DNA from: Tropicimonas sp. IMCC34043
Lineage (GTDB): Bacteria; Pseudomonadota; Alphaproteobacteria; Rhodobacterales; Rhodobacteraceae
DNA: 64,000 nt
Reading direction: 5' to 3'
Assembly: GCF_003390845.1 (NCBI RefSeq)
Contig: NZ_QMEK01000007.1
Span: 124,001 to 188,000 of the forward strand
The notes below the pieces were generated by a model. It searched no databases, had not been told where the DNA came from, and was given only the letters and a program-made list of their open reading frames with translations. The translations under genes were made by a program, and so were the position numbers. Each line of letters begins with the position of its first letter. Position 1 is the stretch's first letter. Shown here piece after piece: positions 23,352-24,964 of this stretch.

Positions 23352-23960
23352 TTAGCCCCCGGTGCCCGGGGGGGCTGCCAGCCCGGCATCCTCGATCACC
23401 TCGCGGTCGGGCAGGTCGCGCAGGGATTGCAGATCGAAGGCGGCAAGAAAGGCGTCGGTGGTGACAAAGGTATAGGGGGCGCCGGGTCTGGGGCTGCGCG
23501 GGCCTGCGGCGATCAGATCGCGCTCGCGCAGCCGGCCGATCAGGTCGCGGCCGACCTCGCGGCCGAAGATTTCGGCCAGGGCTGCACGGGTGATCGGCTG
23601 GTTCCAGGCGATGGCGGCCAGCACCGCGGCGTCGAACTCGGACAGATCGAGCCCCTGCCCCTCGCCCGCCGCCGCGGCGTGGATCGCGGCGGCATAGGCG
23701 GGGCGGGTGCGAAACATCCAGCCGTCCGCGACGGCCACCACCTCATAGGGCCGCTCGGCCAGGTCGGCGCGCAGATCCTCGACCAGCAAATCGACATTGG
23801 CGCCCTGCCCCACCACCCGCGCCAGATCCTCGCGCGGCACCGGCCGGGGGGCGGCAAACAGCACCGCCTCGATCCGGCGCATCCATTCGCGCCAGCGCAG
23901 GCCCTGCGGCAGGTCGGCAAGCTCGCGGTCGAGATCCCCGGTCGGTCGGTTCCGCGCCAT
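23352..23960 (-). CDS. ScpB-family protein (SMC-ScpB chromosome-segregation type), paralogue without ScpA
   Basis: The 202-residue protein has two winged-helix units with the ScpB pattern: RRIEAVLFAAPRPVPREDLARVVG, LSEFDAAVLAAIAWNQPITRAALAEIFG, and a KTAP-like end GAPYTFVTTDAFLAAFDLQSLRDLP. Normal ScpB works with ScpA and SMC in condensing DNA. No scpA or smc is nearby, and the only partner is a DUF1403 gene two bases upstream. It is therefore probably an accessory paralogue with a specialised role, not the housekeeping copy. Confidence 0.82.
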   Translation of the reverse strand: MARNRPTGDLDRELADLPQGLRWREWMRRIEAVLFAAPRPVPREDLARVVGQGANVDLLVEDLRADLAERPYEVVAVADGWMFRTRPAYAAAIHAAAAGEGQGLDLSEFDAAVLAAIAWNQPITRAALAEIFGREVGRDLIGRLRERDLIAAGPRSPRPGAPYTFVTTDAFLAAFDLQSLRDLPDREVIEDAGLAAPPGTGG

Positions 23961-23962
23961 GC

Positions 23963-24892
23963 TCACAACCCGTAAAGCCGAAAGCTGGGCCGTCCGGTCA
24001 GCTCGCGCACCACGCCAAGCTCGACCAGACGGTCGCAAAGCCGCCGCGCCGCGCGGTCGGTCATCCGCAACGCACTGCCGCGGATGATCGGCGACAGCGC
24101 GACCGAGGGCGAAACCGCATCCTCGGTCAGAAACAGCAGCACCGCCGCGGCCGAGCCCTTGGCGCGCAGCTTCGGTTCGACCCGGGCCAGGCCCGCCGCG
24201 CGGCGGGCGAGATCCGCGGCCGTGCGGCAGGCCGCCAGCGCCGCGGCCGCGACCGCGCGGTGACATTCCGTCCGCAGCCCCTCGCCGCCCGCGCGCAGCG
24301 CCCGGCGTGGCAGCCCGGTGCCCAGCAGCGGCACGATCTGTGGCCAGCCAAGCGCCCGGGCCAGCACCGCGTCGGCAAGGATCAGCGCTGCCGCCTCCTC
24401 CCGCGGGTGATCGGCCAGCACCGTTTCGAGCATTGCCGCCGCCGCGGCGACCGGGCCGTCCGCCGTTGCCGTCAGCCCGTCCATTGCCCCCGTCAGGTGG
24501 TCGGGCAGGATCTCGGCCATCCGCGCCGTCCAGTCGCCGCGCAGCGGCAGGCCGACCGCCCGGCGCCAGAGCGCAAAGATCGTGCCCGCCGGTCCCGGCG
24601 TCTCGCCCGGCCGCAGCAGATGGATCTCGTCGCGCAGCTCTGCGATGCGTTCGGACCGGCCGGCGTGCCGGACGCAGGCCTCGGCCGCGGCCAGCGCCAG
24701 CCGGTCGCGCAGCAGCGCCTGTGGCAGGTCGCTCCGCGCCGTGGCGACCCAGGGGTGCAGCGCCGCGAGTGCAGCGCCGGAGCGGAAGGCAAGCGCTTCC
24801 AGCCCGTCGGCCGCCGATCCGGGCGCAATCCAGCCGGGCGCCCTGGCATCGAGTGCGGTGTCGTCGAGCGGGATGGACCGGTTCTGGATCAT
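23963..24892 (-). CDS. DUF1403-family protein
   Basis: The 309-residue Ala/Arg/Leu-rich and mostly helical protein is recognised as DUF1403, a family of unknown function. The C-terminal part (LRMTDRAARRLCDRLVELGVVRELTGRPSFRLYGL) reads like a winged-helix tail, which hints at nucleic-acid or protein contact. In this window it forms a tight two-gene unit with the ScpB paralogue (two-base gap). The N-terminus is unremarkable, with no signal peptide or membrane helix. No function is proposed beyond partnership with ScpB. Confidence 0.7.
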   Translation of the reverse strand: MIQNRSIPLDDTALDARAPGWIAPGSAADGLEALAFRSGAALAALHPWVATARSDLPQALLRDRLALAAAEACVRHAGRSERIAELRDEIHLLRPGETPGPAGTIFALWRRAVGLPLRGDWTARMAEILPDHLTGAMDGLTATADGPVAAAAAMLETVLADHPREEAAALILADAVLARALGWPQIVPLLGTGLPRRALRAGGEGLRTECHRAVAAAALAACRTAADLARRAAGLARVEPKLRAKGSAAAVLLFLTEDAVSPSVALSPIIRGSALRMTDRAARRLCDRLVELGVVRELTGRPSFRLYGL

Positions 24893-24964
24893 GGCCGAAA
24901 TCCTAGCGGCTTGCGGCGCTTTCGTCTATGCTCAAGCCATCAAACCGCCGCAGCGGATCGGCGC

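Follow-up and report, generated by a model that had tools for sequence, protein, structure and literature searches.

The window (the whole stretch of 64,000 nucleotides analysed here) contains two adjoining genes on the reverse strand, namely a DUF1403 gene (23963..24892; 309 aa; PF07183, E 5.2e-76) and, after it, an scpB-like gene of a plasmid ScpB lineage (23352..23960; 202 aa; PF04079, E 3.9e-33). The open reading frames and both Pfam matches agree with the two-gene unit described in the preliminary description, with DUF1403 first, a two-base gap (23961-23962) and then scpB, and both frames are full length and conserved. Its further statements that neither scpA nor smc adjoins the window scpB, whose neighbour is DUF1403, and that the pair sits in a catabolic region were likewise right, as carbon-source genes flank the pair: to one side lie genes for a DeoR regulator, an ABC ATPase and a DAO enzyme resembling glycerol-3-phosphate dehydrogenase, and to the other those for a TRAP-type binding protein and a two-component system. 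Three ScpB matches were detected in the genome, one each on contigs C5, C14 (the window's contig, 230,445 bp) and C15 (138 kb). The match on C5 lies directly after the sole ScpA match of the genome, and a separate housekeeping scpAB is thus present; the window scpB has DUF1403 as its partner gene and lacks the adjoining scpA of an SMC-ScpAB unit. DUF1403 was found on C14 and C15 only, with a disrupted frame on C15. Since C14 (repABC at C14:98274-101801) and C15 both carry repABC, they look like plasmids or chromids.

A conserved inverted repeat lies upstream of DUF1403 (24908..24955, reverse strand), with the half-sites GGCGGTTT at 24949-24942 and AAAGCGCCGC at 24922-24913 and a profile score of 20.3 at the expected place (training sites score 14.4 to 67.7). 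Across loci this palindrome takes the form GGCGGTTT ... AAAGCGCCG and overlies the DUF1403 promoter. The aligned upstream regions revealed a hexamer similar to the promoter -10 consensus (24900..24905, reverse strand), which ends so close to the ATG (7 nt) that the promoter is probably leaderless. The palindrome is presumed to be a putative binding site of DUF1403 and an accessory part of a recombination site, and because of its overlap with the promoter it may serve autoregulation only.

The survey of DUF1403 gene neighbourhoods covered two overlapping locus sets, both chosen for DUF1403, and ScpB followed DUF1403 in every examined locus (60/60 fetched and 80/80 named loci), so the possibility that the two are unlinked in most genomes failed. 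The gap between the genes was -11 to +3 bases in 58/60 loci, with start codons picked by a script, and scpB was close to DUF1403 in 78/80 named loci; these figures describe linkage from the DUF1403 side, and a distant DUF1403 can escape detection. At one and the same limit, 731 of 72,556 plasmid records matched an ScpB like that of the window, a count that takes in more distant ScpB, and 435 matched DUF1403; an annotated DUF1403 was likewise present in three Rhizobiaceae records that had been retrieved through their ScpB. Among Alphaproteobacteria, DUF1403-scpB is a gene pair of plasmids. Within the family to which the window genome belongs, DUF1403 was present in 62/295 genomes at E 1e-3 (57 above the curated cut-off), and class-wide in 4/385 genomes including that of the window (3 above the cut-off). 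Replication genes, among them repABC and parAB-like genes without repC, were located inside the fetched stretch in 44/60 and 57/80 loci.

Sequence distances over 57 loci were correlated at 0.92 for DUF1403-ScpB, 0.73 for DUF1403-recombinase (see below) and 0.18 for DUF1403-RepA; DUF1403 and ScpB travel between replicons as a pair. Moreover, 13 of the 75 loci having at least 1,300 nt upstream possessed the pair with neither an adjacent recombinase nor the core site described below, indicating that DUF1403-ScpB can persist alone, and the window pair is of the same kind. A phage origin was rejected, as none of 50,697 phage records matched DUF1403 and one viral_contigs scan with ScpB returned no relative. 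The window ScpB matched the phage protein family phrog_31717 (E 2e-18; function not assigned), so ScpB-like proteins also occur in some phage genomes. A role in anti-phage defence was also rejected, there being no PADLOC match.

A divergent tyrosine recombinase gene was identified upstream of DUF1403 in 48/60 loci and directly adjoining it in 48/80 loci, with some of the remaining loci stopping at a contig edge. Its product matched Xer-like models, in all cases far below the XerC/XerD cut-offs. The R, K, HxxR, H and Y at the positions which we take to be catalytic were 100% conserved in 57/57 aligned recombinases of relatives, which thus qualify as having intact catalytic residues. In loci L102, L141, L158, L161, L209 and L210, DNA is inserted such that about 3.9 kb, rather than 0.1-0.3 kb, separates the end of the recombinase gene from DUF1403, and these loci keep an intact core beside DUF1403. 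Neither C14 nor C15 was found to carry such a recombinase, and searching the complete window genome, without a positive control, gave no homologue at E 1e-3.

Between the recombinase and DUF1403 lies a 29-bp dif-like palindrome, the core, with the 11-7-11 arrangement ATGTCCGATAA-TGCAAAC-TTATTGGACAT; its centre usually precedes the beginning of the DUF1403 match by 91 bp and, at 7 bp, differs from the 6-bp centre between 11-bp arms of Xer/dif sites. A core-like site (score >12) was present in 124/151 loci, a few of them being half-sites. The exact pattern occurred in 40/295 genomes of the family, compared with 0 for the reversed-pattern control. These 51 exact sites lay on 51 different contigs, with no second exact copy on any one contig and no separate attB among them; 45 had a DUF1403 match no more than about 150 bp away (some of these matches being fragments), one was displaced by 2.5 kb and five were elsewhere. 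The five stray cores, without DUF1403 beside them, have palindrome half-sites attached at a 13-14 bp offset (palindrome profile scores 14.5, 11.5, 9.5, -9.0 and -24.5, two of them negative), and the recombinase or pieces of it were found at two of the five; judging from these attached sequences, they look like relics of modules. Two modules, their cores identical or nearly so, are present together in some genomes (e.g., G419 and G610). In addition, loci L008, L042, L075 and L167-L169 retain the right part of the core only; the left arm is replaced by foreign sequence and no recombinase adjoins, and these partial cores are possible recombination junctions.

In 114/124 loci the right half of the second palindrome begins exactly 49 bp beyond the core, although several intervening positions vary; an accessory sequence at a fixed distance, as in cer-type sites, is thus present. 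The core and palindrome also occur with standard spacing at C14:95710-95800, about 53 kb from the pair and outside the window, some 2.5 kb before repA, with neither a recombinase nor DUF1403 beside them; the palindrome there (C14:95710-95757) keeps its distance from the core in the absence of DUF1403 and scores 24.9. Scanning both strands of C14 and C15 (368 kb) with the palindrome profile yielded three hits above 12, all at module sites, namely the window repeat (24908-24955) and the two core sites on C14 and C15. The window itself holds the accessory half only, i.e., DUF1403, scpB and the second palindrome, with no core beside the pair. The C15 locus (L023, C15:7363-12561) contains repABC followed by the DUF1403 and scpB unit, with core, palindrome, disrupted DUF1403 and intact scpB, and its scpB clusters with those of other genera and not with the window copy. 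The palindrome was mostly kept in core-less loci, with low or negative scores in L122, L130, L132, L182, L187, L192 and L205.

Comparison of natural mosaics shows the core to be a crossover site. In 34 of 7,503 locus pairs, which are not independent of one another, one flank of the core was >92% identical and the other clearly was not. Under stricter limits, 18 pairs with one-sided identity were detected at the core, compared with 0 at 60-180 bp upstream, 3 to 10 at 240-600 bp upstream and 0-5 at 60-300 bp downstream. For example, L072 and L073, on two contigs of one genome, share the sequence to the right of the core for 10,650 bp, as far as the stretch extends (at least 80% per 50-bp step, and 100% within the first 600), and are unrelated to its left; in L084 and L148 it is the left side that matches, over 6,800 bp up to the stretch end, and the right side that differs. 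Because natural mosaics switch there, the core is the place of crossover, as at Xer/dif sites, and a change of sequence at an element of 29 bp speaks for site-specific recombination and not for RecA.

Structure prediction gave a confident model of the window DUF1403 protein (pLDDT 87.2, pTM 0.87), which aligned with the Fic protein SO_4266 over 272 of 309 residues, winged helix included (Z 19.6, rmsd 4.3). Fic chains matched the model with Z from 19.6 to 10.2, the first non-Fic row having 9.4, and the predicted model thus places DUF1403 in the Fic fold; by sequence, no match to solved structures was obtained. The catalytic motif HPFx(D/E)GN(G/K)R is lacking: it was not seen in the 20-row DUF1403 alignment, and when profiles of DUF1403 and Fic proteins were aligned globally (P 6e-5, with a probability of only 37%) the HPFxDGNGR stretch stood opposite a gap. 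Since the model matches Fic plus winged helix and the catalytic stretch falls at a gap, DUF1403 has probably lost enzymatic activity and become a DNA-binding protein, built from a Fic fold and a C-terminal winged helix. DUF1403 as an ScpA homologue or kleisin was rejected by profile comparison (hhalign probability 0.8%) and by the predicted Fic and winged-helix fold. A model of a fused DUF1403-ScpB chain, from an alignment of 11 rows, was of low confidence (pLDDT 53.5) and was set aside. A sub-threshold HTH_13 match (5e-5) in the window DUF1403 hints at a possible link between DUF1403 and DUF1612 proteins.

The window ScpB belongs to the ScpB family, with PF04079 covering positions 2-159 of 160 and both winged-helix domains, though with TIGR00281 it reached 82.6 bits, below the equivalog cut-off of 89.2. 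Profile comparison identified a true ScpB homologue (hhalign probability 100%, E 1.9e-41), and the solved ScpB chains 3w6j and 4i98 matched the ScpB alignment. In the phylogenetic tree, whose bootstrap had not settled, ScpB from DUF1403 loci formed one clade (33 rows, 100/100) on a long branch, apart from 30 chromosomal ScpB rows; the Gluconobacter plasmid ScpB fell on the chromosomal side, also on a long branch.

The full module therefore comprises a divergent recombinase, the 11-7-11 core, the palindrome at a fixed distance, DUF1403 and scpB, usually near repABC or parAB-like genes. We consider it probable that DUF1403 and ScpB form the accessory half of an Xer-type site-specific recombination module on plasmids; this module most likely resolves plasmid multimers. 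Multimer resolution is suggested by the single exact site per contig, by the adjacent recombinase and nearby replication genes and by the lack of a separate attB among the exact sites. The recombinase would recombine the two core sites of a plasmid dimer, and DUF1403, as an inactive Fic protein with a winged helix, would bind the palindrome and repress its own leaderless promoter. Together with ScpB, DUF1403 might then build or gate a synaptic complex, such that only sites of the same molecule recombine, by analogy with ArgR/PepA at ColE1 cer. We infer multimer resolution as the purpose, DUF1403 binding and an architectural role of ScpB. Since two modules whose cores are the same or almost the same coexist in some genomes, a safeguard against the fusion of plasmids would be of use, and the accessory part is a candidate for it. 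The suggestion that this ScpB serves replicon or element maintenance thus gains support, the pair being found beside plasmid replication genes, an Xer-like recombinase and its site.

An unlikely alternative is that DUF1403-ScpB aids plasmid segregation or condensation independently of the recombinase, the two being neighbours because maintenance genes cluster. It would suit the 13 of 75 loci, and the window, in which the pair has no adjacent recombinase and core, as well as the established function of housekeeping ScpB in chromosome segregation; however, the fixed palindrome-core spacing (114/124 loci) ties the two halves together, the core and palindrome survive without DUF1403 at the five stray sites and on C14, and recombinase distances track those of DUF1403 (0.73) far better than RepA distances do (0.18). 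That DUF1403 replaces ScpA was also proposed in the preliminary description; DUF1403-ScpB would then be a kleisin-kite pair that recruits host SMC. Despite the strict pairing of DUF1403 with an ScpB and the ScpA homologue beside the recombinase on some Acetobacteraceae plasmids, we hold this to be very unlikely, given the absence of profile similarity to ScpA (probability 0.8%) and a predicted Fic fold over 272 residues (Z 19.6), although DUF1403 may conceivably stand in for ScpA functionally without being homologous to it. Similarly, several records annotate the recombinases as integrase and locus L099 lies on a 3.1-Mb contig, as might be expected if the module were part of an integrating element with an att site; yet exact sites occur only at modules or relics (45/51 beside DUF1403, one displaced and five with half-sites), with no second exact copy per contig and no separate attB among them, making this explanation most improbable.

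For the window genome in particular, the pair could be a non-functional remnant of a module, which is compatible with multimer resolution as the explanation for the family. Neither recombinase nor core lies beside the window pair, and DUF1403 is disrupted in the C15 sister copy, but both window frames are conserved over their full length and have retained the promoter palindrome upstream, and we regard the remnant reading as possible though doubtful. The window pair may act in trans on the core and palindrome at C14:95710-95800, or be such a remnant.

A wider pattern was observed in Acetobacteraceae, where plasmid loci L040, L266, L267 and L269 combine an Xer-like recombinase with ScpA and an uncharacterised protein, and in Gluconobacter with ScpB too. 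Specifically, two Gluconobacter plasmids carry ScpB, the Xer-like recombinase, the uncharacterised protein and ScpA; one Roseomonas plasmid carries a divergent recombinase, the uncharacterised protein and ScpA, with VapC and a small gene between; one Komagataeibacter plasmid carries a divergent recombinase, the uncharacterised protein and ScpA; and a second Komagataeibacter plasmid carries the latter two with no annotated recombinase. In Gluconobacter (L040:7554) and Komagataeibacter (L267:4307), the recombinase is adjoined by an imperfect palindrome with 10/11 arm pairs, as scored without a chance control, and no convincing palindrome was seen beside that of Roseomonas. The uncharacterised proteins were rejected as DUF1403 relatives (hhalign below 1%). 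Also, the 709-kb plasmid of Bosea sp. RAC05 (L268, 5956-9333) has an scpA-scpB operon with a DUF1612 gene nearby and no recombinase nearby.

On the B. subtilis chromosome, XerD is reported to unload SMC at dif (Karaboja 2021, as cited in PMC13342612). By analogy with this chromosomal report, and from the Acetobacteraceae plasmid pattern, an SMC link of the module is plausible but unproven. Tentatively, and with rather less chance of being right than wrong, DUF1403 might dock ScpB at the palindrome, where ScpB would bring or release host SMC(-ScpA), and loop extrusion would align the cores of a dimer, coupling resolution to segregation. If true, the SMC machinery would be a synapsis and selectivity device for site-specific recombination, and alphaproteobacterial plasmids would encode their own SMC subunit (ScpB, and in some Acetobacteraceae ScpA or both) as part of an Xer machine. 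As the chromosomal link is already known, the module would be a small and movable setting for dissecting how Xer and SMC are connected. The proposed function is the first testable one for DUF1403 and for a plasmid ScpB lineage; it names the DNA site adjoining DUF1403/ScpB, ties SMC subunits to plasmid recombination and may explain how fusion is avoided between plasmids that share a cell and carry near-identical sites. Among open-licence PMC papers, a scope that leaves most subscription journals outside, there was no mention of DUF1403, no paper with repABC together with ScpB and no description of a recombinase-core-DUF1403-ScpB module.

Several known systems share parts of this arrangement. 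Like XerCD/dif, the module combines an Xer-like tyrosine recombinase with a palindromic site, but it differs in its 7-bp instead of 6-bp centre, in the one dedicated recombinase encoded beside the site, in its plasmid location and in its accessory palindrome and proteins. With ColE1 cer and pSC101 psi, at which ArgR/PepA impose selectivity, it shares a longer centre, an adjacent accessory sequence and a putative DNA-binding accessory protein; unlike in those systems, the recombinase is plasmid-encoded, and the proposed accessory proteins are the plasmid-encoded DUF1403 and ScpB. According to PMC2731167, an 8-bp centre as in ColE1 cer always goes with adjacent sequence and accessory proteins, and GTCCGATAA of the module core also occurs in the dif sites of two delta-proteobacteria. 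PMC10194956 describes a tyrosine recombinase downstream of repABC on pSmeLPU88b, proposed for plasmid maintenance, assigns RinQ of R. etli to the invertase/resolvase family and contains neither ScpB nor DUF1403; the module resembles pSmeLPU88b in having a tyrosine recombinase beside repABC. The module ScpB is, like that of the SMC-ScpAB condensin, a true ScpB homologue, but differs from it in its separate long-branch clade, the lack of an adjoining ScpA/SMC gene and its DUF1403 partner gene. Likewise, DUF1403 resembles Fic proteins of the SO_4266 type with a C-terminal winged helix in its predicted fold (272/309 residues), and differs from Fic proteins in being without the catalytic HPFxDGNGR loop.
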